A DNA stretch of 64,000 nt from Streptomyces sp. NBC_00539 (GTDB lineage Bacteria > Actinomycetota > Actinomycetes > Streptomycetales > Streptomycetaceae): NCBI RefSeq assembly GCF_036346105.1, contig NZ_CP107812.1, positions 186,001 to 250,000 on the forward strand, in the 5' to 3' direction. Under the pieces are notes generated by a model that was not told the origin of the DNA, made no database searches, and was given only the letters and a program-made list of their open reading frames with translations. Position numbers and translations under genes: made by a program. Shown piece by piece: positions 15,885 through 48,567 of this stretch (within the stretch, counting starts at the first letter, position 1; each line of letters starts with the position of its first letter).

Positions 15885-15895
15885 GGGACACGCCC

Positions 15896-30850: not shown

Positions 30851-32110
30851 TCAGGCGGCGCGTACCACCACGGCCGCGTTGAAGCCGCCGCGGCCGCGGG
30901 CCAGGACCAGGGCGGTACGCAGCCGGTCGGGCCGGCGTACCTCGGTGACCAGGTCGACCGGGCAGTCCGCGGCCGGCGGCCCCGCGTTGACGGTCGGCGG
31001 GATCACCCCGTCCCGCAGGCAGAGCAGGGCGGCCGCCAGGTCCAGGGAGGCGCCGCCCGCGGCGAGCCGGCCCGTCATGGTCTTCGGCGCGGTCACGGGG
31101 ACGCCGTACGCGCCGAACAGGGCGGCGAGGGCGCCGGCCTCCTCGCGGTCGGCGGTGCGCCGGCCGGCGGCGTCGGCGAAGACCACGTCGACGTCGGCGG
31201 CCTCCAGCCCGGCGTCCCGCAGGGCGAGCCGGGCGGCGGCGCCCAGGCGCGGGGTGCCGCCCGAGCCGGGCGGCGGGTCGAAGGTGGCGGCGTACCCGGC
31301 GACGGCCCCGTACAGGGCGGCGCCCCGCTCGCGTGCGTGGTCCGCGTCCTCCAGGACGAGCAGGGCGCCGCCCTCGCCCGCGACGTGGCCGTCCGCGTCG
31401 GCGGAGAACGGCAGGTACGCCCGGTCCGGGTCCTCGGCGGTGCTCAGTTCGCCTCCGGCGAGGTGCGCCGCCCAGCCCCACGGGCACAGGGAGGAGTCCA
31501 CCCCGCCGGTCACCAGCAGCCGTACGCCGCTCTTGCGGAGCTGGCGGCGGGCGTGGGCGACCGCGTCGAGGCCGCCGGCCTGCTCGGTGACCAGGACGCC
31601 GCTGGGGCCGCGCAGCCCGTTCCTGATGGAGATCTGGCCGGTGTTGACGGCGTAGAACCAGGCGAAGGACTGGTAGGCGCTGACGTACTGGCCGCCCTTG
31701 CTCCACAGTTCCTGGAGTTCCTTCTGGCCGAACGCGTAGCCGCCCGCGGAGGCCGCGGTGATGACCCCGGCGCAGAAGTCGGGCAGGGCGGACACGTCGA
31801 CGGCCGCGTCGGCGAGGGCCTCGTCGGCGGCGGTGAGGGCGAGCCGGGTCATGTGGTCGGTCTGGGGCAGCAGCCGGCTCGGGATGTGGTCGGCCGCGTC
31901 GAAGCCCGGCACCTCCCCGGCGAGGCGGGCGGGGTACTGCCCGGCGTCGAACCGGCCGACCGGGCGGATGCCGCTCTCGCCGCGCAGCACGGCCCCCCAC
32001 CACGCTTCGGTGCCCAGGCCGTTCGGCGCGGCCACGCCGATGCCGGTGACGACCGGCGCGGTGGAACCGGTGGCGGGGCGGGCGGAGTCGGGGGCGGGGG
32101 CGGTGGTCAT
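30851..32110 (-). CDS. Type II PKS chain length factor (KS-beta), set 1
   Basis: 419-residue KS-like subunit without the active Cys. The equivalent position reads VTEQAGG, the canonical Gln of chain length factors. It pairs with the KS-alpha encoded immediately upstream (4-bp ATGA overlap, translational coupling) to form the heterodimer that builds the poly-beta-keto chain. Other KS features, such as the [11 protein letters not shown] segment and the terminal [11 protein letters not shown], match type II CLFs. No ACP or ketoreductase gene lies beside it, unlike set 2 at 58-62 kb, so set 1 either borrows the second set's ACP or makes a different chain. Confidence 0.92.
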
Positions 32111-33378
32111 GCGGCATCTCCCAGGCGCGGGCGGGTCAGGACGATGGCGCTCTGGAAGCCGCCGAAACCGCTGCCGACGCTGAGCACGGTGTCGGTGCGC
32201 TGCTCGCGCGCGACGAGCGGGGTGTAGTCCAGGTCGCAGGTGGGGTCGGGGGTGTGCAGGTTCGCGGTGGGCGGCACGGTGTTGTGCTCGATGGCCAGGG
32301 CGCAGGCGGCCACCTCCAGCGAGCCGATCGCTCCGAGCGAGTGCCCGATCATCGACTTGATGGAGCTGACGGGCACCTCGTAGGCGTGCTGCCCGAGGCT
32401 CCGCTTGAAGGCGGCGGTCTCGTGGCGGTCGTTCTGCTTGGTGCCGGAGCCGTGGGCGTTGATGTAGTCGACGGCGCCGGCGTCCAGCCGGGCCTCGTCC
32501 AGGGCGCTGTCGATGGCGGCGGCCATCTCCGCGCCGTCGGAGCGCAGTCCGGTCATGTGGTACGCGTTGCAGCGGCCGGCGAACCCGGCGATCTCGGCGT
32601 AGACGTGGGCGCCGCGGCGGCGGGCGCTCTCCAGCTCCTCCAGGACCAGCACGGCCGAGCCCTCGCCGAGGACGAAGCCGTTGCGGGTGGCGTCGAAGGG
32701 CCGCGAGGCGGTCCGCGGGTCGTCGTTGCGCGGCGAGGTCGCCTTGATGGCGTCGAAGCAGGCCACGCTGATCGGGGAGATGGGTGCCTCCGTGGCGCCG
32801 GTGACCATCACGTCGGCGCTGCCCTCGCGGATCAGCTCGGCGGCGTGGCCGATGGAGTCCAGGCCCGAGGTGCAGCCGGTGGAGACCATGGACACGGGTC
32901 CCTGGGCGCCGACCCGCCAGGCCACTTCGGCCGCCATCGAGCTGGGGACGAAGTAGTCGAACAGGTGCGGGGCGGCCAGGGTGTGGTCCACCTGCCAGGT
33001 GCTGCCGCCCAGGCTCACCGCGTTGTACTGGTCGTCGAGGCCCATGGTGCAGCCGACCGCGCTGCCTAGGGTGACCCCGGTGCGCTCCGGATCCGCGTCC
33101 GCCCCGTCCAGGCCGCTGTCGCGCAGCGCCTCGCCGGCCGCGACCAGCGCGAACTGCGCCGCCCGGTCGAGGCGGTGGGCCTCTTCGGCGGTGAATCCGT
33201 GGGCGAGGGGGTCGAAGTCGACCTCGGCGGCGATGCGGGAGCGGTACCCGGTGGCGTCGAAGAGGCTGATGGGCCGGGTGGCGGTCGTCCCGGAAGTGAG
33301 CAGGGACCAGTACTCCTTGGTGCCCACTCCCCCGGGCGCGACCACGCCGATTCCGGTGATGACGACGCGTCGGCTCAT
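32107..33378 (-). CDS. Type II PKS ketosynthase alpha, set 1
   Basis: 423-residue KS-alpha with the catalytic Cys in VSTGCTSG, His in [11 protein letters not shown] and His in [11 protein letters not shown]. It condenses malonyl-ACP units with its CLF partner. Start MSRRVVITG was chosen because GAAGGA lies 7 nt upstream; an upstream in-frame ATG is weaker. Closely similar in layout to KS-alpha of set 2 at 61028 but with many substitutions, so the two sets have separate histories. A terminator ends the metF operon about 100 bp upstream, so this pair probably has its own promoter, with heptamer repeats at 33432. Confidence 0.93.
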
Positions 33379-33431
33379 TGGGTGTTCCTTCACGGGTGAG
33401 TCCTATGGGTGGTGAGCTTGGCCAGCTCCGC

Positions 33432-33539: not shown

Positions 33540-34451
33540 TCAGCGCGGGGCGGCGAGCAGGGGCCGGGCGGCGGCGCTCGGCGAGCCGAGGATGTTGCGG
33601 TGGATCTCCAGGGTCGCCGTGGAGCGGTTGAGGGTGATGTAGTGCAGGCCGGGGGCTCCTTCCGCCAGCAGCCGCTGCGCCATGGCGGTGGCGTACTCCA
33701 CGCCGATGCGGTGCCCTTCCTCCGGGTCGTCGCGCGCTGCTTCCAGGCGCTGCGCGAGGGACGGCGGGAACGCGGCGCTGCTGAGCTCGGCGAAGCGCCG
33801 GATCTGGCGCACGTCGGTGGCGGGCATGATCTCCGGGATGATCGGGGTGTCGCAGCCCGCCGCGGTGACCCGGTCGCGCAGCCGCAGGTAGTCCTCGGCG
33901 TGGAAGAACATCTGCGTGACGGCGTAGTCGGCGCCGGCCCGGCACTTGGCCACGAAGTGCCGGATGTCGCTGTCCCAGTCCGGCGAGCGGGGGTGCCGCT
34001 CCGGGAAGGCCGCGACGCCCACGCTGAACTCCCCGGCCCTCCGGACCAGCGAGACCAGCTCGTGGGCGTGGTGGAAGCCCTCCGGGTGCGCTGTCCAGGG
34101 CGCGTTCGGATCGCCCGGCGGGTCGCCGCGCAGGGCCAGGACGTCGAGGACGCCCGCGTCCGCGTACTGGCCGAGGATGTGGCGCAGTTCGGCGACGGAG
34201 TGGCCGACGGCGGTGAGGTGGGCGACGGGCCGCAGGGTCGTCTCTGCGGCGATCCGCTTGGTGACCTCGACCGTCCGGTCCCGGGAGGAGCCGCCGGCCC
34301 CGTAGGTGACCGATACGAAGGACGGTGAGAGGGGTTCGATCCGACGGATCGCGTCCCACAGCACGCGGGTTCCCGCGTCGGTCTTCGGCGGGAAGAACTC
34401 GAAGGAGTACGAGGGCCTCCCGCTGCGCAGCATCTCGCGCAGTACGGTCAT
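33540..34451 (-). CDS. metF: Methylenetetrahydrofolate reductase
   Basis: 303-residue single-domain MetF-type TIM-barrel flavoprotein that makes 5-methyltetrahydrofolate, the methyl donor for methionine. The N-terminus [13 protein letters not shown] holds the catalytic Glu; [13 protein letters not shown] and [10 protein letters not shown] are family motifs. It lies in a minus-strand run metK, adenosine kinase, metF with gaps of 48 and 76 bp. This grouping regenerates SAM and clears its by-product, and is known from macrolide clusters such as tylosin, where methylations demand SAM. The methyltransferases themselves are not in this window. Confidence 0.92.
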
Positions 34452-34527
34452 CTGCGCCCTCCCGCCCGGCCCGGCGTCCCGCCCGTGGGCGCGCGGCCCC
34501 CGGGCGTCCCGCTCCCGCACTTCCCCC

Positions 34528-35511
34528 TCATGCGCGCCCCGCCAGACCCGGCTCGATCTCCCGCGCCGCGGCGCTGCCGTAGACGCGGTCGATACGGGAC
34601 AGCAGCTCGGAGGGGAGCAGCTTGTACTCCTGCGTGCCGACCGATTCGAGGACCACCGTGGCCAGCGCGCAGCCCAGTTGGGCGGCCCGCTCGTACGGCA
34701 GGCCCCAGGACACGGCGGCGAGGAAGCCGGCGCGCAGGGCGTCGCCCACGCCGGTCGGGTCGGCCGCGGCGTCGGTGAGGACGGCGGGGACGTCCGTACG
34801 GGAGGCGCCGGCCGTCAGGATCGAGACCCCGTCGGCGGCGCGGGTCACGACCCAGGTGCCGACCCGCTCCAGCACCTGCTCCTCGTCCCAGCCGGTGCGT
34901 TCGCGCAGCAGTGCGCTCTCGTACTCGTTGGTGAACAGCAGGTCCGCCCCGTCCACCAGCAGCCGGGTCTGCTCGGTGTCGAGCCGGGCGAGCTGCTGCG
35001 AGGGGTCGGCGGCGACGGGGATGCCGAGTGCGTGTGCCGCAGCGGTGTGGCGCAGCATCGCGGCGGGGTCGTCGGCGCCCACGAGGACGAGGTCGAGGCC
35101 GCCCACGCGCTCGTGGGTCTCGGCGAGGTCGATCCTTCCCGCCTCGGCCATGGCACCCGCGTAGAAGGTGGCGATCTGGTTCTGGTCGTCGTCCGTGGTG
35201 CACACGAAGCGTGCCGTGTGCAGGGTCTCGCTGACGCGGACGGAGGTGGTGTCGACGCCCGCTTCGCGCAGCCGGGCGCCGTATTCGGTGAAGTCGAGGC
35301 CCGCGGCCCCGATGAGCAGGGGCCGCAGGCCCAGCCGGCCGAGACCGACGGTGATGTTGGCCCCGACGCCGCCGTGGCGGACTTCGAGGCGGTCGGCGAG
35401 GAAGGACAGCGAGACCCGGTCCATCTGTTCGCTGATCAGCTGGTCGGCGAAGCGTCCGGGGAAGACCATGAGGTGGTCGGTGGCGATGGAGCCGGCCACG
35501 GCGATACGCAC
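34528..35511 (-). CDS. PfkB-family kinase, probable adenosine kinase
   Basis: 327-residue ribokinase-fold kinase. It has an N-terminal [11 protein letters not shown] substrate region, [16 protein letters not shown] and the C-terminal [12 protein letters not shown] with the catalytic Asp and anion hole. The residue pattern matches actinobacterial adenosine kinases more than fructokinases. Between metK and metF it would phosphorylate adenosine released from S-adenosylhomocysteine, pulling the methyl cycle forward. In this window it might alternatively act on a nucleoside of the C-nucleoside route 8 kb away; that is speculative. Confidence 0.85.
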
Positions 35512-35559
35512 AACGATTCTCCTTGGAGTGTGGCGGGGCCAGTTGGCGCGGACCGGCGT

Positions 35560-36771
<1,212 letters not shown>

Positions 36772-36877: not shown

Positions 36878-37618
36878 TCACCAGGCGAGGCCCCCGTTGA
36901 CCTCCAGGACGTGCCCGTTGACGTAGGCCCCGGCGTCGCCCGCCAGGTAGACGGCGGCCCCGGCGATCTCGCGGCCGGTGCCCATGCGGCCCAGCGCCAC
37001 CTTCGGCGCGTACGTGCTCCACACCGCCTGGTTCTGCTTCAGCAGCCGCCCCATGCCCTCGTCGATGAAGCCGGGGGCCAGGCAGTTGACGACGATGCCC
37101 TTCGGCGCGAGTTCCAGGGCGATGACCTTGCTGAACATCTCCACAGCCGCCTTGGTCGCGCAGTACGCGGACGCTCCCGGGGCGGGCCGGCTGCCCAGCG
37201 CCGAGGACATCGTGATGATGCGGCCGCTACCGCTCCGCTCCAGGTACGGCACGGCCGCCTGCACGCAGTGGAAGAGGCCGTTCACGTTCGTGTCGACGAC
37301 CTCCGCCCAGTCCGCGCCGGCCAGCCCCGCCGCGGGCCCCGGCCGGCTCAGACCGGCGTTGGCCATCAGGATGTCGACCCCTGCGAACCGGTCCGCCGTC
37401 GCCTCCATCAGCGCGCGCACCGATTCCGGGTCGCGTACGTCGGTCTGCCGGAAGACGGCGCGGCCGTCCAGGTGCGCCAGGGCCCCCTCCGCCCCGGCCT
37501 CGCCGCGCGCGGCGACGACGACGCGCGCGCCCTCCGCGACGAACGCCTCGGTGATCTTGAGGCCGAGGCCCTTCGTCCCGCCGGTCACCACGGCGACCCG
37601 GCCCTCCAGTGCCCCCAT
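36878..37618 (-). CDS. Short-chain dehydrogenase/reductase
   Basis: 246-residue classical SDR. NADPH-binding TGGTKGLGL, the NNAG-equivalent MANAGLS, active-site Ser in MSSALGS and YCATK (Tyr and Lys) are all in place. FabG-like in general, so it could reduce a keto group of a polyketide or act as a dehydrogenase. The first base of its start overlaps the last base of the SARP3 stop (TGATG), so it is translationally coupled to that activator. Target unknown. The C-terminal NGGLAW ending is common in polyketide-tailoring SDRs. Confidence 0.85.
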
Positions 37619-38463
37619 CAGGTACCGGACCGCACCGCGAACCGCTCGCCGCCGGCCCGGGGGGCCGCGGCGCCGGGCGGTCCGGGGACGCGCCCGGGGA
37701 CGCGCCTGGGGGCGGGGCTCAGCAGCCGGGCCTGGAGCTGCCTGAGTTCCGGCGAGGGTTCCATGCCCAGCTCGTCGGCGAGGATCCGGCGGACGTTCTG
37801 GTAGGCCCGCATGGCTTCCGCGCGCCGGCCGGCGCCCACCAGGGCCGCGATGAGCCGGCTGTGGAACCACTCGTTGAGCGGGTAGTCGTTGGTGAGCTTG
37901 CGCAGTTCCGGGATGGATTCGCGGTTCAGACCCAGCTGCTCCTGCGCCTCGATCCGGATCTCGAAGGCCCGTACGCGCAGCTCCTCCAGGTGCACGAGGT
38001 GGCCGGTGAGCACATCGCCGACGGGGTGGTTCGACAGCGCGGGCCCGCGCCACAGGTCGAGCGCCTGCCGGACGCTGCGCAGCGCCGCGCCCGGGTGTCC
38101 GCCGCCGAGTTCGGTACGGGCCTGGGCGACGAGCCGTTCGAAGACGCGGATGTCGATCTCGGTGTCGTCGGCGAGGATCCGGTAGCCGGGCGGGCTGGTG
38201 ACGATCAGGGAGCGCCCGGCCGGCACCAGGTCCTCGCTGACCAGCATCCGGCGGGCGTGGTACACGTACGTCTGGAGAGTGGTGACGGCGCTGCGCGGCG
38301 GTGTGTCGCCCCACAGCTCATGGATGAGCGCTTCCGCCGTGACGATCTCATGGGGCCGGGTGAGCAGCAGCGCCAGTGTCTGGCAGACCTTGGGGGTCCC
38401 CGGCCGGTACACCCGTCCGTCGTCGGAGACGATCTCGAACGGGCCGATGAGATTGAAACGCAT
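37618..38463 (-). CDS. SARP-family transcriptional activator (3)
   Basis: 281-residue SARP with an OmpR-type domain (CQTLALLLTRPHEIVTA, AVTTLQTYVYHARR) and a BTAD, followed by a Pro/Arg-rich tail. It is the most diverged of the three SARPs here, by inspection of the DNA-binding helices. AGGAG precedes the ATG. It is directly downstream of the indigoidine synthetase gene, but a strong terminator lies between them, so it has its own promoter in the 111-bp gap or receives read-through. Co-translated with the SDR. Confidence 0.93.
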   Translation of the reverse strand: MRFNLIGPFEIVSDDGRVYRPGTPKVCQTLALLLTRPHEIVTAEALIHELWGDTPPRSAVTTLQTYVYHARRMLVSEDLVPAGRSLIVTSPPGYRILADDTEIDIRVFERLVAQARTELGGGHPGAALRSVRQALDLWRGPALSNHPVGDVLTGHLVHLEELRVRAFEIRIEAQEQLGLNRESIPELRKLTNDYPLNEWFHSRLIAALVGAGRRAEAMRAYQNVRRILADELGMEPSPELRQLQARLLSPAPRRVPGRVPGPPGAAAPRAGGERFAVRSGT

Positions 38464-38574: not shown

Positions 38575-41500
38575 TCACTCCTCGCCGAGCAGGTAGCGGA
38601 TGTGCTTGACCAGCTCGCCGATGTCCTCGCGCAGCAGGCTGTAGTGGTCGGCGTCGAGGTCGATCACCGTCGGCGGCTCGGCCGAGTAACCGCTGCTGTT
38701 CTCCAGGAACGAGTAGTCGTCGCCCACGGCCTTGAAGATGCTGATCGGCGCCTGGAGGGTGCGCTCGGCCAGCTCGTGGAAGGAGTACTCGAACTCGTAG
38801 GTCTGGCCCACGACCGAGATGATCCGCCGGGCGAGTTCGACGTCGATGCCCTTGAGCTCGCTGATGAACTCGGCGAAGGACGCCTCGTCCGTCACGGTCT
38901 CCAGGCACTTGTCCAGGTCCGGACCGGAGATGGTGCCGGTGAAGACGGAGAAGAGGATGGTGGTGTAGCCGCGGTTGGCGAAGGACGCCTCGCGGCCCCA
39001 CACCTTGCCGTTCTCGGCGCGCACCTTCGGGGAGCCCGGCGCGATCAGGAACAGGTTGTCCACCTTCTCGCCGGCCTGCTCCAGCTGGTAGGCGGTCTCG
39101 AAGGCCACGCGGGCGCCGAAGGAGTAGCCCCACAGGGTGTAGGGGCCGGTCGGCTGGAGCTCCTTGATGGCCTCGATGTCCGCCTTGGCCATCTCGACGA
39201 TGGTCTCGTACGGGCTCTCGCCCTCGTTGATGCCGTGCGACTGGACACCGTAGAAGGAGCGGCCGAGGCCGATCTCGCCGGCCAGGGAGCGCAGGTTCAT
39301 CGGGTAGCCGCCGAGGCCCGGCCAGCAGATCACGGGCTTGGCCTTGCCGGTCTCCGCGTGCAGGCGCACCAGGCGCGAGGACTCCTGGGCGACCTCCCGC
39401 TCCAGGCGCCGGGCGAGCTTCTCGACGGTCGGGGACTCCAGGACGCTCTGCAGCGGCAGGGAGACGCCGAGCCGGGAGTTGAGCTCGCGGATGAGACCGA
39501 CGGCGATCAGCGAGTTGCCGCCGGACTCGAAGAAGTCGTCCTGGACGGAGACGCTCTCGCGCCGCAGGGACTTCGCCCAGATCGCGCTGATCTCCTTCTC
39601 GGTCTCCGTGCGCGGGGCGACGAAGGGGCGTTCGACGAGTTCGGCGTTGACCTGCTCGGAGGCGGCCAGTGCCTTGACGTCGACCTTGCCGTTGGCGGAC
39701 AGCGGCATCCGCTCGAACACCACGACCCGGTTCGGGATCATGTAGTCGGGCAGGAAGCTGACGAGGTCGTCGCGGATGAGCTCGGCCGGACCGCGCATGT
39801 GGACGCTGTCCTCGCGCATGCCCTCGTGGCCGACCTGCTCGTCGCTGATGCGGCCGCCGACGAAGAAGTACATCGGGCCGCCCTCGACGCCGTTCGCGGC
39901 GAGGACGGAGTCCATGCGGCGCGAGGCGGGCAGCGGGTTGCCGGTCTTGGAGCTGTAGCCGGAGGACATGAAGCCCAGGTTCAGCCCGTTCATCATCAGG
40001 TGCTGGAGCTTCTTGCCCAGCTCGATGTAGTGCATCCACGCCTGGGGGGCGCGGCTGTAGACGCTGATGCCGAAGCTGGCGGCCTGGTACACCGACTGGT
40101 TGATCGCGATGACGTGCTTCTTGAGGACGATGTCGTCCGAGAAGCGGGTCAGCTCGCCGTCCTCGTAGCGGTACAGGGCCTCGGGCAGGCCGGCGATCTT
40201 GCTGCCGTGCGTCTGGACGTAGACCTCGGCGTGGTCCTCGCGCGGGCCCGCGTGCGGGACGAGCTCGAAGGTGCCCAGGTAGTAGTCCTCGTCGGCGACG
40301 TCGAGCAGTTCCCGCACGGCCGGCTCGTAGGCGCGGTCGTGGATGTCGAGGCCGTAGGACGGCAGGATCTGCTCGAAGAGGCCGACCATGTGGCCGGTCT
40401 CGATCTCCAGCACTTCGAGGATGTTGTTCTTGTAGACCGGCTCGATACCGCTCTTCTTGCCGATGAAGTGGATCTGCGCGGTGGGCTTGCCGGTGGCCTC
40501 GCGCTCGCTGATCAGCACGAGCTGGTGGCGGACCGGCTGGTAGTAGTAGTAACCCGGCCGCAGCCCGCCGACGCCCTCCAGCTCGAAGTACATCTGCGTC
40601 GCGTACAGGGCGCCCGGGGAGGCGTACCCGTACTTCGGCAGGAGCCGCTCCTCGCTGACGAACTGGCCGAACCAGCGCAGGATCTGCCCCAGTTCGGCGG
40701 GGGCCAGGTCGGCCGCCTTGCGCGAGTAGCCCGCGGTGACCTTGGCGCCGAGCAGGTCGAGCAGGTCGGCCCGGGTGACCTCGCCGCCCTCGTAGAAGCG
40801 GTAGGTCTTGCGGGCGAAGACGCGGGCGCGCTGCTCGGGGGTGGCTTCGGCGCCCGGCAGGTCGTAGGCGGTGCGGGCGGCGAGCTCGGCGTCGTCGCGC
40901 AGGCCCGGGTTGGACAGCTGCGCCTTGACCTGGAGCTTGCTCTTCTTCGAGGCGTGGTGGGAGCCGTGGTTGCCCTGGTCCATCAGGGCGGCTTCCTTCT
41001 CGCTCAGCTCGACGCAGGCGATCAGGTTCTGGAAGCCGGTACGGCTGTCGTTCTTGACGATGACGGCCGCGTTGCGGACCCACTCGTGGTTCTCGATCGC
41101 GAGGGAGATCTCGTCGAGTTCGACGCGGTAGCCGCGCAGCTTGACCTGGTTGTCGGCGCGGCCGGCGAACTGCACGGTGCCGTCCGGGTTCCACTGGCCC
41201 AGGTCGCCCGTCTTGTAGAGGCGGGTGGGGGTGTCGCCGTCGCCGAGGGGGATCTCCAGGAAGCGGTCGGCGGTCAGGTCGGGGCGGTGCAGGTAGCCGC
41301 GGGCCAGCTGGACGCCGCCGATGTAGAGCTCACCGATCTCGCCGACGCCGACGGGCCGCAGGTCCTTGTCGAGGATGTGGTACTCGGTGCGGTGGACCGG
41401 GCTGCCGATCGAGATCGACTGGGGGCCCTCGTCCAGGGCCTCGGGGTCGACGGTGTACGAGGAGGAGTTGATGGTGCACTCCGTCGGCCCGTACAGGTTG

Positions 41501-42426
41501 ATCAGGGAGCGGCCCGGCATCTCGCGGGTGACCTGGATCGCGAGGTTGCGCGAGAGCGCCTCGCCGCCGCTGAATATCTGCTCCAGGGAGGAGCAGGCGT
41601 CGAACTTCTCGGTGTCGATGAGCGCCTGGAGCAGCGTCGGGACGCACTGCAGGGTGGTGACGCCGTGCTTGTGGATGGTCTCGATGAGGCCCTCGGGGTC
41701 GGCGTAGACGCCGGGGGCGCCCATGACGACGGTGGCGCCGTTGGCCGGGGAGAGGATCTCCCACTGGGCGGCGTCGAAGCTCATCGGGGTCTTCTGCAGG
41801 ACGACCTTGCTGCGGTCGATGCCGTGCGTCTCGCGCAGCCAGCCGAGCTGGTTGACGACGCTGCGGTGCTCGATCATCACGCCCTTGGGCTTGCCGGTGC
41901 TGCCCGAGGTGTAGATGACGTAGGCGAGGCTGTCGGGGCGGGCGCCTTCGGCGGCGGGCGCCGGCGCGCCCGCACCGGGCAGGACGAAGGCGTCGGAGTC
42001 GCGCAGGGTGACGACGGTGACGTCCTTGGGCGCGAGTTCGCGCAGCCGGGACACCAGGCGCTGCTGGGCCAGGATGATCTTCGCCTGGCTGTTCTCGATC
42101 ATGTAGCGGAGCCGGTCCTCGGGGTACTCCGGGGACAGCGGCAGGTAGGCGCCGCCGGCGGACAGGATGCCCCAGGCGCCGATCATCAGGTCGAGCGACG
42201 GCTCGACGAAGAGGCCGACGCAGTCGTCCGCCGAGACGCCGAGATGTCTGAGGTACTCGGCCAGGGCCGAGCTTCTGGCCGCCAGTTCGCGATACGTGAG
42301 GCTCTGGTCACGGTAGACGACGGCGGTCGCCTCCGGGTGCTCCGCGACCCGCTCGGCGAGCAGGTCCGGCAACGCCTTGGTTCCCAGAAGGGTGGGATCG
42401 AGCACGCTGGTCTCCTGAAAGGTCAT
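38575..42426 (-). CDS. bpsA: Indigoidine-type non-ribosomal peptide synthetase (A-Ox-T-TE)
   Basis: 1283-residue one-module NRPS, the same length and layout as BpsA/IndC. The A domain (about 1-560) has YTSGSTGKPKG and SFDAAQWEIL. An FMN-dependent oxidase domain is inserted between A core motifs 8 and 9 (about 590-850, with the Tyr-rich GYYYYQP). The T domain carries Ser972 in GGNSL; the TE has Ser1102 in GYSFGA. From memory it is nearly collinear and highly similar to S. lavendulae BpsA. Such enzymes cyclise and oxidise L-glutamine to a 3-amino-pyridine-dione that dimerises to blue indigoidine or, in minimycin-type pathways, is diverted to a C-nucleoside. The genes to its right favour testing the second fate. 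RBS AAGGA precedes the ATG. It needs a PPTase, and one is encoded at 52367. Confidence 0.96.
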   Translation of the reverse strand: MTFQETSVLDPTLLGTKALPDLLAERVAEHPEATAVVYRDQSLTYRELAARSSALAEYLRHLGVSADDCVGLFVEPSLDLMIGAWGILSAGGAYLPLSPEYPEDRLRYMIENSQAKIILAQQRLVSRLRELAPKDVTVVTLRDSDAFVLPGAGAPAPAAEGARPDSLAYVIYTSGSTGKPKGVMIEHRSVVNQLGWLRETHGIDRSKVVLQKTPMSFDAAQWEILSPANGATVVMGAPGVYADPEGLIETIHKHGVTTLQCVPTLLQALIDTEKFDACSSLEQIFSGGEALSRNLAIQVTREMPGRSLINLYGPTECTINSSSYTVDPEALDEGPQSISIGSPVHRTEYHILDKDLRPVGVGEIGELYIGGVQLARGYLHRPDLTADRFLEIPLGDGDTPTRLYKTGDLGQWNPDGTVQFAGRADNQVKLRGYRVELDEISLAIENHEWVRNAAVIVKNDSRTGFQNLIACVELSEKEAALMDQGNHGSHHASKKSKLQVKAQLSNPGLRDDAELAARTAYDLPGAEATPEQRARVFARKTYRFYEGGEVTRADLLDLLGAKVTAGYSRKAADLAPAELGQILRWFGQFVSEERLLPKYGYASPGALYATQMYFELEGVGGLRPGYYYYQPVRHQLVLISEREATGKPTAQIHFIGKKSGIEPVYKNNILEVLEIETGHMVGLFEQILPSYGLDIHDRAYEPAVRELLDVADEDYYLGTFELVPHAGPREDHAEVYVQTHGSKIAGLPEALYRYEDGELTRFSDDIVLKKHVIAINQSVYQAASFGISVYSRAPQAWMHYIELGKKLQHLMMNGLNLGFMSSGYSSKTGNPLPASRRMDSVLAANGVEGGPMYFFVGGRISDEQVGHEGMREDSVHMRGPAELIRDDLVSFLPDYMIPNRVVVFERMPLSANGKVDVKALAASEQVNAELVERPFVAPRTETEKEISAIWAKSLRRESVSVQDDFFESGGNSLIAVGLIRELNSRLGVSLPLQSVLESPTVEKLARRLEREVAQESSRLVRLHAETGKAKPVICWPGLGGYPMNLRSLAGEIGLGRSFYGVQSHGINEGESPYETIVEMAKADIEAIKELQPTGPYTLWGYSFGARVAFETAYQLEQAGEKVDNLFLIAPGSPKVRAENGKVWGREASFANRGYTTILFSVFTGTISGPDLDKCLETVTDEASFAEFISELKGIDVELARRIISVVGQTYEFEYSFHELAERTLQAPISIFKAVGDDYSFLENSSGYSAEPPTVIDLDADHYSLLREDIGELVKHIRYLLGEE

Positions 42427-42682
42427 TTCTCGCTTCCTTACTTCCTTCGTGGAACAGCGGGCGTGCTCGACGCCCGCGCGACCGGGCCGCGCTCCTTGCG
42501 GCAGACCGGTCTGCAGCGGCTCACCGCGGTGCGGACGGCACCCGCGGGCCGGGGAACACCGCGGGGGTGAGCCGGAAGAGCCGGGCGGCGGCCCGGAGTG
42601 AAGAAACCGACGGACAGGGGACCAGGACCGCTCCCCCGGTAGGGCTGCCGGGACGGCGCGCCGCGCGCACCGCCCCGGGGTA

Positions 42683-42707
42683 CGGGCGGGCCCCCTCGGC
42701 CCGCCCG
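42683..42707 (-). terminator. Hairpin terminator after PRPP synthetase
   Basis: Perfect 10-bp stem CGGGCGGGCC/GGCCCGCCCG with a CCCTC loop, 7 bp past the prs stop on the minus strand. The rest of region 42427-42714 should carry the promoter of the synthetase gene. I see no convincing -35/-10 there and only a single TCGAC. Confidence 0.65.
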
Positions 42708-42714
42708 TCCCGGC

Positions 42715-43674
42715 CTACCGGTCCTGGAGCAACCGGGTCACCGATCCGTTCTCGAACACCTCACGGGCGGCACCCGCGATGAGCGGGGCGATCGACAGGA
42801 CGGTGACCTTGTCCAGTCCGAGCGCCCCGGGCACCGGCAGGGTGTCCGTGAAGACGAACTCGCTGACCCGCGAGTTCTTGAGGCGGTCCGCGGCGGGGCC
42901 GGACAGCACCCCGTGCGTGGCCGCCACGATGACGTCCCGCGCGCCCTGTGCGAAGAGGGCGTCGGCGGCGGCGCAGATCGTGCCGCCGGTGTCGATCATG
43001 TCGTCGACGAGGACGCAGTCCCGGCCCTCGACGTCACCGACCACCTCGTGGGCGGTGACCTGGTGGGCCACGTCCTTGTCGCGCCGCTTGTGGACGATGG
43101 CCAGCGGCGCGCCCAGCCGGTCGCACCACCCGTCCGCGACCCGGACGCGGCCGGCGTCGGGCGAGACGACCGTCAGGTTGTCGCGGTCGGCCTTGGCGCC
43201 GATGTGGTCCGCGAGGACCGGCATCGCGAACAGGTGGTCCACCGGCCCGTCGAAGAAGCCCTGGATCTGGTCGGCGTGCAGGTCCACCGTCAGGATCCGG
43301 TCCGCTCCGGCCGTCTTGAGCAGGTCCGCAACCAGACGGGCCGAGATGGGCTCGCGGCCGCTGTGCTTGCGGTCCTGGCGGGCGTATCCGTAGAACGGCA
43401 GGATCACCGTGATGCTGCGGGCCGAGGCCCGCTTCAACGCGTCGATCATGATGAGCTGTTCCATGATCGCCTTGTTGATCGGTGCGGTGTGGCTCTGGAT
43501 GACGAAGCAGTCCGCGCCGCGCACGGAGGCGTGGTAGCGGATGTAGATCTCGCCGTTGGCGAAGTCGATCGCCTTCGTCGGGACCAGCGTCGTACCCAGT
43601 TCGGCTGCCACGGCCTGCGCCAGCTCGGGGTGTGCGCGCCCCGAGAAGAGCAGCATCTGGCCCGGGCTGCTCAC
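42715..43674 (-). CDS. prs: Ribose-phosphate pyrophosphokinase (PRPP synthetase)
   Basis: 319-residue class I PRPP synthetase that makes 5-phosphoribosyl-1-diphosphate from ribose-5-phosphate and ATP. Motifs include FANGEIYIR, the [11 protein letters not shown] metal/ATP region and the PRPP loop [15 protein letters not shown] start overlapping the reductase stop by 4 bp. Its presence in one run with a uracil phosphoribosyltransferase and a TrpF-like barrel indicates a dedicated PRPP pool. The C-glycosylating enzyme nearby is expected to use ribose-5-phosphate, the substrate of this enzyme, so the two compete for or balance the same pool. Probably a cluster-specific second copy. Confidence 0.93.
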
Positions 43675-44756
43675 GCGGAACCGGCCTCGGCCAGCGTCGG
43701 GTAGTCGGTGTAGCCCCGGTGGTCGCCACCGTAGAAGGTGGTGGTGTCCAGTGCGTTGAACGGGCCGCCGGCGCGGACGCGCTCCGGCAGGTCCGGGTTG
43801 GCGAGGAACGCCGCGCCGAACGCGACGGCGCAGGCGACGCCGGCCTCCAGTGCCTCGGTGGCGATCTCGGCCGTGACCGGGACGCCCAGGTTCTCCGGGT
43901 GCGGGCACAGGATGATGGTGCCGGTCCACTGGGCGCGCAGCGCCTCGGTCTGGCCGCGGTTGCCGCCCTCCAGGACGTGCAGGAACGCCACCGGCGGCAG
44001 GGCCGCGACGAGCGCCTCGTACAGGGCGGCGGTGTCGCCCTCGACGATGTCGTTGTACGGGTTGGCGGGCGAGATGCGCACGCCGACGCGGTCCGCGCCG
44101 ATGCGCTCGGACACCGCCTCGATCACCTCGACGGCGAAGCGGATGCGGTTCTCGATGGAGCCGCCGTACCGGTCGGTGCGCCGGTTGGTGTTCTCCGCGA
44201 GGAACTGGTGGAGCAGGAAGCCGTTGCCCGCGTGGACCTCGACGCCGTCGAAGCCGGCCTCGATGGCGTTCTGCGCGGCGTCCGCGAACTCCTTGACGGT
44301 GTCAGCGATCTCCTCGACCGTCAGCTCGTGCGGCTCCTGGTACTCCAGCGGGCCCTCGGGGCCGAAGCACTGGCCGGCCGCGGTGACGGCCGACGGCGCG
44401 ACGGACTGGTGGGCGCTCGGGTACAGGGAGGGGTGGCCGATGCGGCCGCAGTGCATGAGCTGGGCGGCGATCAGCCCGCCGGCGCGGTGCACGGCGGAGG
44501 TGACCTGCTTCCAGGATTCGGTCTGCTCCTGGGAGTACAGGCCGGGGCTGTTCATGAACCCCTGGCCGACGACGTTGGGCTGGATGCCCTCGGTGATGAT
44601 GAGGCCGGCGCCCGCCCGCTGGGCGTAGTAGGTGGCCATCAGCTCGGTGGCGAGGCCGTCGGGGGTGGCGCGGTTGCGGCTCATGGGCGCCATGACCAGG
44701 CGGTTGCCCAGGGACAGCTTGCCCAGGGTGACCGGCTCGAACAGCTTCTCGGACAT
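43671..44756 (-). CDS. Old yellow enzyme-family ene-reductase
   Basis: 361-residue FMN TIM-barrel oxidoreductase of the OYE/OPR type. The FMN-binding start [10 protein letters not shown], the LMHCGRIGH strand, the catalytic [14 protein letters not shown] (His and Asn pair) and RYGGSIENR are all intact. It reduces activated C=C bonds with NAD(P)H. RBS GAGGAG before the ATG. Translationally coupled to prs and 110 bp downstream of the PsuG-like gene, so most likely part of the pyridine/C-nucleoside pathway, where it could reduce the oxidised amino-pyridine-dione. I know of no OYE in described indigoidine or minimycin clusters; a role in detoxification of quinones from the aromatic pathway is the alternative. 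Confidence 0.9.
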
Positions 44757-44847
44757 CGTGTGTCTCCTCATTGAGGTCATGTCGTGGTGCGGACGTACGG
44801 CGGCGTGGCGCGGTGGCCGGGACGGAGCCCGGGCCGGACGGGGGCCG

Positions 44848-44886
44848 GCGGCCCGCGCGTTCGGGGCTAGCGGCCCGCGCGTTCGG
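44848..44886. repeat. 17-bp direct repeat across the stop codon of the PsuG-like gene
   Basis: GCGGCCCGCGCGTTCGG occurs at 44848-44864 and again at 44870-44886, with a 22-bp period. The right copy encodes the last residues of the enzyme and the TAG lies between the copies. It looks like a small tandem duplication of the gene's 3' end and has no clear function. Confidence 0.6.
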
Positions 44887-45811
44887 CGAGGTGCGCGGCG
44901 TGGGCCACGGCCAGGCGGCCCGCGGCCTCGGCGCAGGAGGCGAGGACGGCCATGTTGGCGCGCGCCGAACGCCCGTCGGTGGCCGCGTCCACGGCCCGCA
45001 TCAGGTACTTGGTGATGCCCTGGCCGGAGACCCCGTCGGCGGTGGCCCGGGCGACGGCGGCGCGGATGGCCGTGTCGACCTCGGTGGAGTCGATGGCGTC
45101 CTCTTCCCTGACCGGGGTGGTGATCAGGAAGGAACTGTTGTTGCCCAGCGCCCAGTGCGCCTCGATGGCGCGGGCGATGACCTGCTCGTCGTCCAGGCGG
45201 TGGGGCGCCCGGTGACCGCTGGTGCGGCAGTAGAAGGCGGGGAAGTCGTCCGAGCGGTAGGCGACGACCGGGACGCACTGCGTCTCCAGGTACTCCAGCG
45301 TCAGCCCGAGGTCGAGGATCATCTTCGCTCCGGCGCAGACGACCGCGACCTTGGAGCGGGTGAACTGGATGAGGTCGGAGGAGACGTCCCAGGTCTCCTG
45401 CGCGCCGCGGTGCACGCCGCCGATGCCCGCGGAGGAGAAGAAGGGGATGCCCGCGAGCTCGGCCGCCACGACGGAGGACGCCACGGTGGTGGCGCCGAGG
45501 CCGCCCTTGGCCAGCACCAGGGGCATGTCCCGGCTGGAGACCTTGGGGATGTCCGGCAGGGAGGCGAAGCGCTCGATGTCCGAGTCCGACATGCCGACGC
45601 GGATCTCGCCCGCCTCGATGCAGATCGTCGCGGGTACGGCACCGCCGGCCCGTACGGCGTCCTCCACCTTGCGGGCGGTGGCCGCGTTGTCGGGGTAAGG
45701 CAGGCCGTGCGTGATGACGTTGCTCTCCAGGGCGACGACGGCCGCGCCGTCGTGGAGGGCCTCACGGACTTCCTCGGTGTAGACGACGGGGATGCCGCTG
45801 CTTGCGCTCAT
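44867..45811 (-). CDS. Pseudouridine-5'-phosphate glycosidase-family C-glycosylating enzyme (IndA/MinB/AlnA-like)
   Basis: 314 residues, full length for the PsuG family. Catalytic residues are conserved: Glu29 in ALESN, Lys90 in KVSSRD and Lys163 in [16 protein letters not shown] forms the phosphate loop. PsuG breaks the C-glycosidic bond of pseudouridine-5'-phosphate. Secondary-metabolism relatives run the reverse reaction, joining ribose-5-phosphate to a heterocycle (IndA/MinB) or an aromatic polyketide (AlnA in alnumycin). Both kinds of acceptor pathway are present here, an indigoidine synthetase and two type II PKS sets. Location beside prs, an OYE, UPRT and the synthetase favours the heterocyclic acceptor. 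The usual partner, a HAD phosphatase (IndB/AlnB), was not found. Confidence 0.9.
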
Positions 45812-45821
45812 CGAAGGTCTC

Positions 45822-46055
45822 TCACTTCTCGTTCCAGTAGCCGGGCGGTTTGACCAGCAGGTCCCGGCGGGCCGCTATCTCGGTGAGGACGTGGGCGTCC
45901 CAGTCCTCGGGTTCGACCGGCTCCAGCGAGATCGAGACGGTCTCTTCGCCGGTGGCGAAGGTCCGCATCACCGCGGAGGTGACCGCGTCGTCGATCGCCC
46001 GGAGCTGTTCGGCCGTGAAGTCTCTCGGGTAGTGCCGGACGTGGATGTGGGGCAC
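45822..46055 (-). CDS. 4-oxalocrotonate tautomerase-family protein (PptA-like)
   Basis: 77-residue protein beginning (M)PHIHVRHYP. Removal of Met exposes Pro1, the catalytic base of the tautomerase superfamily. Length and the ending KKPGY-like VKPPGYW match E. coli PptA. GTG start, with GGAGAGGAACC about 10 nt upstream. It lies 10 bp upstream of the PsuG-like gene on the same strand, so the two form an operon. A keto-enol tautomerase could adjust the hydroxypyridone or uracil-like ring around C-glycosylation; this is inference from position. Longer in-frame starts upstream run through a hairpin and are unlikely. Confidence 0.85.
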
Positions 46056-46089
46056 GGGACTCGGTTCCTCTCCTGATCGGTGGCGGACG

Positions 46090-46129
46090 GGTGGCACACC
46101 GAGGACGGGGGAGACCTCGGTGTGCCACC
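46090..46129 (-). terminator. 15-bp perfect hairpin between EamA and tautomerase genes
   Basis: GGTGGCACACCGAGG pairs perfectly with CCTCGGTGTGCCACC around a 10-nt loop. It lies 66 bp past the EamA stop and 35 bp upstream of the tautomerase GTG, on the minus strand. It could terminate the TrpF-UPRT-EamA unit or act as an attenuator for the following genes. Confidence 0.6.
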
Positions 46130-46194
46130 ACCTCTCCCGGCCCCCACCAGGGGGGTTTCGGCGGGGCCGGGAGTTCGGGAGGAGCTCCGGCGCG

Positions 46195-47103
46195 TCAGGC
46201 GTCGACGGGCTCCCGCGCACTGGCCCTGGCCGCCTGCCTCCTGGCCCGGCCCGGACGCGGCTGGGCCAGGATCACGGCGGCGACCACGGTGAGGGCACCG
46301 ACGAGCTGGAGCGGCGACAGGGCCTGGCCGAGGACGAAGTAGCCGAGCAGGGTGGCCGCGAGCGGCGAGGCGAAGCTCAGGAACGACACGGCGAGCGCGG
46401 GCAGCCGTTCCATGCCGCGGAACCAGATCGCGTAGGCGAACAGGGCGCCGATGATGCCGAGGTAGGCGAAGCCGGCGAGGTTCTTGCCGGTGATCGTGTC
46501 GGGCAGGCCCTCGCCGATCAGTGCGACCGGCAGGAGCACGAGTCCGCCGACGGTCAGCTGCCAGCCCGTGAAGGTCAGCAGGCCCACCCCTTCGGGGCGG
46601 CCCCAGCGCTTGGTCAGCACGATGCCGGAGGCCATGCTGAGCGCGCCCAGCAGACCGGCGATGACCCCGGTGGCGTTCAGGCCGGCGTTCGGCTGGAGGA
46701 CCAGCAGGGCCACACCGGCGGCGCCGAGCGCACAGGCGACCAGGTGGATCTGCTTGATCTTCTCCTTGAGCAGCAGGGCCCCCAGCAGGAGCACGATCAT
46801 CGGCTGGATGGACATCACCAGCGCCGCGACCCCGCCCGGCAGGTGGTACGCCGCGACGAACAGCAGGTAGAAGAAGGCGCCGATGTTCAAGACGCCCAGG
46901 ACCAGCGCACGCCACCACCAGATGCCGCGGGGCAGCGTCCGGCCGATGAGTACGAGGATCAGGCCGGCGGGCAGGGCCCGCAGCAGGGACGCCAGCAGCG
47001 GGCGGCCCTCCGGGAGCAGCTCGGTGGTGACCAGGTACGTCGAACCCCAGATGGCGGGTGCGAGCGCGGTCAGCGCCGAGTCGGACAGCGCGCGGCTCTT
47101 CAT
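46195..47103 (-). CDS. EamA-family exporter (2), candidate product exporter
   Basis: 302-residue ten-helix membrane protein with two EamA repeats (WGSTYLVTTELLP near the start, a second repeat near residue 150) and a basic C-terminal tail. Start overlaps the UPRT stop by 4 bp (ATGA), so it is translated with that enzyme. In the minimycin cluster a transporter (MinT) and a UPRT (MinD) are described as parts of self-protection; the same coupling here supports a role in exporting a nucleoside-like product. That assignment is by analogy from memory. Confidence 0.87.
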   Translation of the reverse strand: MKSRALSDSALTALAPAIWGSTYLVTTELLPEGRPLLASLLRALPAGLILVLIGRTLPRGIWWWRALVLGVLNIGAFFYLLFVAAYHLPGGVAALVMSIQPMIVLLLGALLLKEKIKQIHLVACALGAAGVALLVLQPNAGLNATGVIAGLLGALSMASGIVLTKRWGRPEGVGLLTFTGWQLTVGGLVLLPVALIGEGLPDTITGKNLAGFAYLGIIGALFAYAIWFRGMERLPALAVSFLSFASPLAATLLGYFVLGQALSPLQLVGALTVVAAVILAQPRPGRARRQAARASAREPVDA

Positions 47104-47768
47104 CGGACCACGGCCGAGTCGGTCGTGCCGAAGAAGCGGTCGCCGAAGTCACCGATGCCGGGGATCATGAACGCGTTCTCGTTCAGCCGCTCTTCGACCG
47201 ACGAGGTGACGATCTTGACGGCGGGGTGCTTGGCGTGGACCGCCTCGATGCCCTCGGGCGCGGCGAGGAAGTTGACGAACACGATGTTCTCCTCGCGCAC
47301 GCCCGCGTCGAGCAGCAGGCCGATGGCGGCGTTGGCGCTGCCGCCGGTGGCGAGCATCGGCTCCAGCAGCAGTACCTGCCGGTGCGCGATGTCGTCCGGG
47401 AGGTTCTGGTAGAGGTACTGCGGGAGCTTGGTGGTCTTGTCGCGCTGGATGAGTATCTTGCCGACGCGGATGTTGGGAACCAGGGCGCGCAGCTCGTCCA
47501 CCATCGAGTCCCCGGCCCGGATCACGGGCACGGCGCACAGGTCCGGCGTGAACTTCAACCCCTCGAAGGTCTCGCCGACCGGCGTGGTCACCTTCTGCTT
47601 GTCGAACGGCAGCAGATCCAGCGCCGATTCGAGCAGGAGGCGGATGATGCGCCGGGAGTAGAAGACGAAGTCCGCGCGCGAGGCGTCACGGTCTCGGATG
47701 ATGGTGTGCATCGCCCGCAGCTGGTTGGTCTGCGGAAGCGGGTGGACGTTGTGGTGGCCGGTCGCCAT
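47100..47768 (-). CDS. upp: Uracil phosphoribosyltransferase
   Basis: 222-residue type I PRTase, UPRT group. The PRPP loop reads LEPMLATGGSANAAI, with Glu where most UPRTs have Asp before PMLATGGS; the uracil-binding C-terminal region AFMIPGIGDFGDRFFGT is conserved. It makes UMP from uracil and PRPP. In a C-nucleoside cluster it may salvage or neutralise a toxic uracil analogue, or feed a phosphoribosylated intermediate. A GC-rich hairpin of about seven pairs at 47806-47842 lies upstream, between this gene and the TrpF-like gene. The RBS is weak (AGG only), which fits coupled or low expression. Confidence 0.92.
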   Translation of the reverse strand: MATGHHNVHPLPQTNQLRAMHTIIRDRDASRADFVFYSRRIIRLLLESALDLLPFDKQKVTTPVGETFEGLKFTPDLCAVPVIRAGDSMVDELRALVPNIRVGKILIQRDKTTKLPQYLYQNLPDDIAHRQVLLLEPMLATGGSANAAIGLLLDAGVREENIVFVNFLAAPEGIEAVHAKHPAVKIVTSSVEERLNENAFMIPGIGDFGDRFFGTTDSAVVR

Positions 47769-47871
47769 GAGAACCTGCTATCTCGTCGGTCGGTGGAGAC
47801 GGGCTGCGGCCGGGCCCGGTGGGGGTGCCCCGGGGCGGCCGCAACCACGGGGTCGGGCGGTGCCGTCGGCG

Positions 47872-48567
47872 TCAGGCGCTCTCGGCCGCGATCTCGGCGA
47901 ACGCCTTGCGCGACTCGGCCACGAACTTGGCGACCTTGGCGCGGTCCTTGCGGCCGTCGGCGCCTTCGAGGCCCGTGTGGGCGTCGACGGCGGCCGGCTT
48001 GACGAAGCGGATCGCGTCGGCGACGTTCTCCGCGTTCAGGCCGCCGGCCATCATCAGGGGCTTGGGGGAGCGGCGCACGAGCTCGGCGCTGACGTTCCAG
48101 TCGTGGGTGAGGCCGGTGGCGCCCTTGGCACCGGTGGCCGGGTTGAAGGTGTCGGTGATGAACATGTCCACCGAGTCGGCGACGTCGTCGACGAGCTGGA
48201 GCAGCTCCTCGGCGTTGTCCTCCTTCACGACCAGGCTCTTGAGCACGTACAGGTCGGGACGGTTGGCCTTGAGCTTGCGCAGCTGTTCCGGCTCCACGTC
48301 ACCGTGCAGCTGGACGGCCTTGACGCCGAGCTGAGTGGTGAAGGCGCTGATCTCGTCGGCGTCCGTCATGTAGCTGATGAGGACGCCCTCCTGGGGGGCC
48401 TTCAGGCTGCCGATGATCTCCGTCGCCGCCACCTCGGAGATGTCGTCCTTGCCCGACGGGAGGCGGAGCGGGAACCCGAACCAGTCGACGCCCTCCTCGG
48501 CCAGCAGAGCGGCCTCTTCGGCGTCGATGATCCCGGCGACCTGCACCAGATCCTTCACGTCACTCAT
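47872..48567 (-). CDS. TrpF-like (phosphoribosylanthranilate isomerase fold) protein lacking the catalytic Cys
   Basis: 231-residue TIM barrel of the TrpF family. Conserved segments are the strand with FGFPL, KAVQLHG, the acidic FITDTFNP (Asp matching the general acid), MAGGLNAENV and AVDAHTGLE (phosphate loops). The first strand reads VQVAGIID where TrpF has KICGIT, so the general-base Cys is Ala11. It is therefore unlikely to be a working phosphoribosylanthranilate isomerase and no other trp gene is near. It could bind another phosphoribosyl compound, such as a C-nucleotide, or isomerise a different aminoaldose. GAAGAGG precedes the ATG. First gene of its unit, behind a 257-bp leader region. 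Confidence 0.85.
   Translation of the reverse strand: MSDVKDLVQVAGIIDAEEAALLAEEGVDWFGFPLRLPSGKDDISEVAATEIIGSLKAPQEGVLISYMTDADEISAFTTQLGVKAVQLHGDVEPEQLRKLKANRPDLYVLKSLVVKEDNAEELLQLVDDVADSVDMFITDTFNPATGAKGATGLTHDWNVSAELVRRSPKPLMMAGGLNAENVADAIRFVKPAAVDAHTGLEGADGRKDRAKVAKFVAESRKAFAEIAAESA

Follow-up and report, generated by a model that had tools for sequence, protein, structure and literature searches.

A candidate TrpF-type branch of the indigoidine and minimycin pathways on a plasmid of Streptomyces sp. NBC_00539

What is made by an operon in which an indigoidine-type nonribosomal peptide synthetase (NRPS) stands beside a PsuG-family C-glycosynthase and a TrpF-like protein? Such a block of eight genes lies at positions 38575 to 48567, all on the minus strand, of the 64,000-nucleotide stretch of Streptomyces sp. 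NBC_00539 analyzed here (the window; NZ_CP107812.1, 186,001 to 250,000), which is plasmid-borne and belongs to a 436,969-base contig (C2) of a 7.5-Mb genome. An initial annotation had named eight gene families on one strand within 10 kb, and our family calls with Pfam and NCBIfam agree with all of them. We class the block as a variant of PsuG/indigoidine-type pathways. We consider it fairly probable that it is a biosynthetic operon, a TrpF-type branch of the indigoidine and minimycin pathways, that makes a C-ribotide of an aminopyridinedione whose phosphorylated sugar is reworked by the TrpF-like protein and an Old Yellow Enzyme (OYE). Because the ribose would be attached through carbon and then reworked by enzymes with changed catalytic residues, it is improbable that the operon yields either plain indigoidine or the antibiotic minimycin.

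The NRPS (38575 to 42426; 1,283 amino acids) has AMP-binding, PP-binding and thioesterase domains by Pfam, and the stretch between its A and T domains aligns with the Ox region of indigoidine-type synthetases. It has the A-Ox-T-TE order, the common pocket and the T and TE serines of the BpsA/IndC type. With positions assigned by eye from A-domain motifs, the pocket code reads DAWQFGLINK, a code shared with minimycin-type NRPSs, identical in 68 of 84 aligned synthetases (the window's included) and one residue off in the other 16. We take this pocket to accept glutamine, as in the family. The active-site serines of T and TE were found in 83 of the 84 rows, the remaining row having a gap.

The PsuG/IndA-family gene (44867 to 45811) matched Pfam Indigoidine_A and no NCBIfam model, and its product is MinB-like. 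As the initial annotation held, its catalytic residues are intact: Lys163 and Glu29 align with Lys166 and Glu31 of the Escherichia coli enzyme, and both were retained in all 88 aligned rows (75 different sequences). The protein is 73 to 78% identical to the PsuGs of four minimycin-type and three HAD-type clusters, 55% to that of A. vitis, 48% to AlnA, 47% to that of E. coli and 42% to the genome's own second PsuG. For the homologue YeiN, the accessible part of PMC7722734 describes a lysine iminium with open-chain ribose 5-phosphate, coupling of the base, elimination of the lysine and reclosure of the ring, with an equilibrium far toward synthesis. A ring-opened adduct formed in this way should bear an exocyclic double bond conjugated to the ring carbonyls.

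The TrpF-like gene (47872 to 48567) encodes a protein of the phosphoribosylanthranilate (PRA) isomerase fold according to Pfam and structure prediction. AlphaFold gave a confident barrel (predicted local distance difference test score, 91), whose nearest solved folds were PRA isomerases, followed by ribulose-phosphate epimerase, thiamin phosphate synthase and other barrels. Homologues came from a non-exhaustive scan of GTDB based on an alignment of TrpF-like proteins and two peptide patterns; among the best 80 of 154 relatives, 63 (L148 to L210) were 62 to 98% identical and the other 17 were at most 50% identical. The T. maritima and archaeal TrpFs used for comparison read K-I-C-G, and the 63 homologues (61 different sequences) all have Q-x-A in place of K-x-C, the motif Q-V-A-G carrying Gln9 for lysine and Ala11 for cysteine. 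The cysteine lost from K-x-C-G is what we take to be the general base of TrpF. Asp139, at the position presumed to hold the general acid, is present in 63 of 63, and Lys148, His155 and His197 are equally invariant. Since the catalytic cysteine is gone from every one of these homologues, we do not favor the idea that the protein is a spare housekeeping PRA isomerase. The 17 more distant relatives have K-x-C in 14 cases and Q-x-A in three (L211 to L213), outside the gene context described here. These three TrpF-like proteins are 45 to 50% identical, and no UPRT (uracil phosphoribosyltransferase), PsuG or NRPS match was found in the stretches taken around them (only 4 kb for L211).

The OYE (43671 to 44756), which is NemA-like, is altered too. 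It retains the substrate pair His175 and Asn178, and Phe180 stands where the proton-donor tyrosine is expected, so that its motif reads H-A-G-N-G-F against H-x-x-N-G-Y in four solved relatives. Phenylalanine was found in 42 of 42 rows (34 different sequences). The portion of PMC4303823 available on the ergot enzyme EasA reports that forms with tyrosine reduce, that forms with phenylalanine isomerize and that restoring the tyrosine brings back reduction. We found eight OYEs in the genome, with the motif visible in seven: five with tyrosine and two with phenylalanine.

The remaining genes of the block are a canonical phosphoribosyl pyrophosphate (PRPP) synthetase, or ribose-phosphate diphosphokinase (42715 to 43656; NF002844, 553 bits against a cutoff of 438), a PptA-like tautomerase (45822 to 46055) that corresponds, as a separate protein, to the Tau domain carried by MinA, an EamA-family exporter (46195 to 47103) and UPRT (47100 to 47768), whose PRPP loop and C-terminal uracil-binding loop are conserved with few exceptions in 75 aligned rows. 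The initial annotation had spoken of several overlapping starts. Only UPRT and EamA overlap, by 4 bases, and all other genes are spaced apart: tautomerase and PsuG by 10 bases, OYE and PRPP synthetase by 14, and the NRPS start follows the PRPP synthetase after 288.

How far does the block follow minimycin? The minABCDT cluster of S. hygroscopicus JCM 4712, whose product is also called oxazinomycin, is described in the accessible parts of PMC8724604 as encoding MinA (A-Ox-T-TE plus Tau), MinB (PsuG), MinC (HAD plus DUF4243), MinD (UPRT, for self-resistance) and MinT. In our data this architecture appears on an S. mirabilis plasmid (L007), with an MFS protein, an NRPS with fused tautomerase, PsuG, HAD-DUF4243 and UPRT. 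The window has counterparts of all these parts except MinC, with EamA as the exporter, and neither HAD nor DUF4243 had a match within it. A profile search of the whole genome did not find PF14027; the same profile gave full-length matches in three minimycin-type genomes (G265, G355 and G258), none in G345 and, in G353, a genome of the TrpF type, a brief low-scoring match located outside the cluster. The initial annotation had held that minimycin logic operates here, and this stands for the NRPS, tautomerase, PsuG, UPRT and exporter and fails for both halves of MinC. Its view that the OYE and TrpF-like protein mark the departure from minimycin agrees with the invariant active-site changes in both.

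We looked across 395 Streptomycetaceae genomes to see where these genes occur. A TrpF-like homologue of at least 64% identity was present in 15 of them (the window's included), and the next 22 genomes reached at most 34%. Indigoidine-type NRPSs (E value of 1e-90 or better) gave 78 matches in 69 genomes. The surroundings of 76 of the 77 matches outside the window were taken (10 of L038 to L051 and all of L082 to L147; G133:C268, at a contig edge, was dropped), and a marker was counted if it lay within about 9 kb and reached 45% identity, or 35% in the case of the tautomerase. PsuG accompanied 16 of the 76 NRPSs, and all 16 of these loci had UPRT; 10 had TrpF and 6 had HAD, with none having both and none having neither. 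Other markers in these 16 were tautomerase (14), EamA (11), OYE (5), PRPP synthetase (5) and DUF4243 (3). The 60 loci without PsuG had no UPRT, TrpF, HAD, OYE or PRPP synthetase at all; tautomerase was found in 25, EamA in 4 and DUF4243 in 1. The complete separation of TrpF and HAD would arise with odds of 1 in 8008 if the two were independent, a figure that overstates the exclusion because the loci are related.

In a tree of PsuG sequences, three HAD-type PsuGs grouped with 17 TrpF-type ones (100/99), apart from the other TrpF-type PsuGs. Long branches make its root and deep branches unsafe, and this grouping is the only one we use; it suggests that HAD and TrpF endings may have been exchanged on related PsuGs. 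A phylum-wide sample showed the Ox stretch in 5 of 396 genomes and added a single new locus (L232), used in the PsuG tree only. Two other kinds of locus were also seen. L085 and L009 (S. clavuligerus pSCL4) have an indigoidine-type NRPS, tautomerase and DUF4243 with no PsuG match in the stretch taken, and are possibly an oxidative branch without the sugar. On a plasmid of NBC_00212 (L008, 8147 to 20840), PsuG, a HAD hydrolase and an MFS gene lie beside a tautomerase, cupins, an asparagine synthase, PrpF and a dihydroorotase-family gene, with no NRPS match; this is possibly a C-nucleoside cluster of a different kind.

The core recurs in two phyla, Actinobacteria and Proteobacteria. By record title, 13 of the 63 TrpF-like loci from GTDB belong to Proteobacteria (some titles are those of metagenome bins), and several of the 63 come from genomes also in the Streptomycetaceae sample. 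UPRT was present in all 63 (at most 600 bases away in 61), NRPS in 58, PsuG in 57, tautomerase in 46, EamA in 42, a DJ-1-like gene in 17, a WrbA-like gene in 14 and a methyltransferase in 8; HAD (at 45% identity or more) and DUF4243 were found in none. A looser NRPS count of 59 owes its extra locus to one 28% match (L172). Where both 10-kb flanks were available (43 loci), UPRT was found in 43, PsuG in 42 and NRPS in 41. OYE and the WrbA-like gene never occurred together, and 19 of the 63 had neither. A second subtype (L047 to L051 and 14 of L148 to L210) has the WrbA-like gene, often with the DJ-1-like gene and methyltransferase, and no OYE.

A megablast search with positions 37 to 50 kb of the window found two records of pSA3239, from S. 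lavendulae CCM 3239, and a plasmid from Streptomyces sp. NBC_01276; both plasmids carry all eight genes in unchanged order, and the encoded proteins are 78 to 95% identical. Because the same genes stand in the same order on two other linear plasmids, the block is not a chance grouping. On the NBC_00158 plasmid, OYE and TrpF are jointly absent from the eight; the W1SF4 plasmid has only the NRPS, tautomerase and EamA at the equivalent site and lacks the other five. Two gene modules thus come and go among plasmids. The initial annotation knew of no described cluster with the full set, and here it must be corrected: pSA3239 has all eight genes, and pET44827 of C. aurimucosum has the core.

We propose the following pathway. 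The NRPS would likely oxidize and cyclize L-glutamine to 5-amino-3H-pyridine-2,6-dione, as is known for its family, and the tautomerase, by analogy with the Tau domain of MinA, would likely convert this to a nucleophilic tautomer, diverting it from dimerization to indigoidine. PsuG, with its residues intact and its reaction taken from homologues, would likely join the aminopyridinedione to ribose 5-phosphate by a C-C bond via a lysine iminium and a ring-opened intermediate. The weak step of the scheme comes next. With no HAD phosphatase, the TrpF-like protein would act on the phosphorylated, ring-opened sugar, most simply by a 1,2-shift of the Amadori type that yields a C-linked 1-deoxyribulose 5-phosphate, and the OYE would isomerize or reduce the conjugated exocyclic double bond. 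A shift from C2' to C1' on the ring-opened adduct would correspond to the TrpF reaction carried out on a C-linked substrate, and the OYE would be a natural partner for the double bond. The occurrence of the TrpF-like gene in the branch that lacks HAD, together with the joint absence of TrpF and OYE from NBC_00158, fits such a sugar step. UPRT, fed by the PRPP synthetase, would likely maintain the uridine monophosphate (UMP) pool against a toxic C-nucleotide, and EamA would likely export the product, in analogy to MinD and MinT. As a bolder and rather doubtful possibility, the TrpF-like protein would be a new type of enzyme, an Amadori-like isomerase acting with a rebuilt active site on a carbon-linked ribotide in place of N-phosphoribosylanthranilate; with the phenylalanine OYE it would yield open-chain C-linked sugars, a cross-phylum class that includes colored products such as the Corynebacterium black pigment.

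Several observations weigh against a sugar-reworking pathway. With its cysteine base lost, the TrpF-like protein could be dead or act in binding only. The phenylalanine is also found in one chromosomal OYE paralogue, and the change is therefore not exclusive to the operon. OYE was seen in only 29 of the 63 TrpF-like loci, with none in the stretch taken for 34, and PRPP synthetase in only 21, so these two are not core. Four sampled loci (G134, G147, G165 and G199; L041 to L044) carry the sugar genes in the arrangement TrpF-UPRT-EamA-PsuG-OYE(-PRPP synthetase) with no NRPS in the stretch taken; the synthetase for PRPP was not found in the G165 stretch, and a tautomerase was found only in that of G134. 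The G199 genome has no Ox-domain match, and the other three have an Ox domain elsewhere. The exchange of HAD and TrpF is not absolute, since NBC_00158 has neither and in L180 a gene resembling HAD at about 32% identity (best E value 3e-21) directly follows OYE; a more distant HAD-like gene occurs in L159. PsuG identity is no clean marker either: the PsuG of the C. aurimucosum cluster is only 42% identical to that of the window, as distant as the genome's second PsuG, and identity alone therefore cannot sort function. Finally, the strain with pSA3239 is reported, going by a cited paper's title, to form a blue pigment resembling indigoidine.

One alternative, which we regard as unlikely, is the view taken in the auricin literature: a plain indigoidine locus with the blue dimer as end product and the other genes in detoxifying or accessory roles. 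The W1SF4 plasmid, with its three genes at the same place, and the 60 of 76 sampled NRPS loci without PsuG speak for it. Against this, in the sampled loci the sugar genes go strictly with PsuG (UPRT in 16 of 16 loci with it and 0 of 60 without), the core is found in two phyla, and an accessory role leaves an intact MinB-like PsuG unaccounted for. Self-protection or salvage, which we rate as quite improbable, would have PsuG act as a glycosidase on a toxic C-nucleotide while PRPP synthetase recycles the ribose 5-phosphate, UPRT makes UMP and EamA exports. PsuG, PRPP synthetase and UPRT could in theory complete a cycle, the four loci named above have the module but no NRPS, one of them in a genome without an Ox-domain match, and a PfkB-family kinase gene lies at 34528 to 35511. 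An NRPS is nevertheless present in 58 of the 63 TrpF-like loci, the PsuG equilibrium is far on the synthesis side according to PMC7722734, none of the eight genes encodes a C-nucleoside kinase, and the TrpF-like protein and OYE are left without a role.

Minimycin itself is a very unlikely product. Its NRPS, tautomerase, PsuG, UPRT and exporter all have counterparts here, but both MinC parts, the HAD phosphatase and DUF4243, are absent from the window, and the genome-wide search for PF14027, positive-controlled in three genomes, found no match; we reject minimycin on this ground. We give even less credence to C-ribosylation of a neighboring type II polyketide by PsuG, as by AlnA in alnumycin. 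The block does sit inside an auricin-like type II polyketide synthase (PKS) region, and AlnA is a PsuG homologue. The window's PsuG, however, is 48% identical to AlnA against 73 to 78% to minimycin- and HAD-type PsuGs (a comparison tempered by the 42% of C. aurimucosum), the core occurs without a PKS in the annotated C. aurimucosum and A. vitis plasmid stretches (the two in which PKS genes were sought), and the auricin sugar genes are named as those for D-forosamine in the accessible text of PMC10409956. Nor do we favor a reading in which UPRT and TrpF reproduce the TrpD-TrpF pair, forming an N-ribotide and then performing the Amadori shift, because UPRT accompanies PsuG just as strictly in the six sampled HAD clusters, which lack TrpF. 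A biosynthetic TrpF-type branch is the reading that we prefer.

A SARP-family regulator gene (37618 to 38463, minus strand) adjoins the block; homologues hold the equivalent position in pSA3239, NBC_01276 and W1SF4, and the NBC_00158 stretch showed none. The block is flanked by two separate sets resembling type II PKS KS/CLF genes, at 30837 to 33393 and at 59814 to 62296, the second inside the auricin-like flank. Three consecutive genes at 33540 to 36771 were read by eye as metF-like, PfkB kinase and metK, with a domain match for PfkB. Look-alikes of all three also lie downstream of the related G333 cluster (L047, 16878 to 20000), so some of these clusters may carry along a cassette for methyl supply. 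Genes resembling NDP-hexose 2,3-dehydratase and Gfo/Idh oxidoreductase genes lie at 14460 to 16924; in pSA3239 such genes are near the TrpF-like gene, and they may have been relocated relative to that plasmid.

The TrpF-like loci are public and many; published descriptions turned up for two of them and treat these, in the parts available, as genes for indigoidine or a black pigment. If our reading is true, a conserved C-glycoside branch has so far gone unnoticed in Streptomyces, Microbispora, Micromonospora, Rheinheimera, Pseudoalteromonas and others, and it includes a repurposed TrpF whose reaction is open to a one-tube assay. A literature search, with subscription papers outside its scope, found no paper joining "C-nucleoside" with "phosphoribosylanthranilate isomerase," for indigoidine with PRA isomerase only the Corynebacterium paper, and for indigoidine with UPRT three papers.

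A close known relative is the aur1 region of pSA3239, which shares the eight genes in the same order at 81 to 95% protein identity and the same PKS neighborhood; the flank at 48.6 to 64 kb is about 84% identical to it over 88% of its length. It differs in having an alpha/beta hydrolase and two deoxysugar genes between TrpF and rfbH, where the window has 1 kb and no room for them. The auricin cluster is described, in the text available of PMC10409956, as interrupted by genes whose product has no relation to it, the blue pigment indigoidine, and we infer from plasmid and synthetase that those genes are this block. The black-pigment locus of C. aurimucosum pET44827 (order MarR, TrpF, UPRT, NRPS, tautomerase, PsuG and EamA) has the core in one run. 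It lacks OYE and PRPP synthetase, has its own MarR regulator and an NAD(P)H-binding protein, and is 55% identical to the window in TrpF-like protein and 42% in PsuG; the accessible part of PMC2830990 links it to the pigment and guesses at a role for the two phosphoribosyl genes in activating the NRPS. An A. vitis plasmid tabulates TrpF, UPRT, EamA, NRPS, tautomerase, PsuG and OYE. The igi indigoidine clusters of Leisingera and Phaeobacter share the NRPS and a 4-oxalocrotonate tautomerase, whereas the igi genes tabulated in the part seen of PMC5014874 include no PsuG, UPRT or TrpF. The showdomycin and alnumycin pathways share a PsuG-type C-glycosynthase and, like minimycin, pair it with a phosphatase (SdmB and AlnB), according to the available text of PMC8724604; their aglycones are different, and showdomycin uses dissociated NRPS parts. 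Compared with the minimycin architecture of L007, the window has the same A-Ox-T-TE NRPS and specificity code, a tautomerase, a PsuG 73% identical to that of L007, UPRT and an exporter; its tautomerase is separate, EamA takes the place of the MFS protein, HAD and DUF4243 are absent, and the TrpF-like protein, OYE and PRPP synthetase are added. Indochrome of Arthrobacter consists of C-ribosylated relatives of indigoidine, which would be the sort of product expected from an NRPS and a PsuG.

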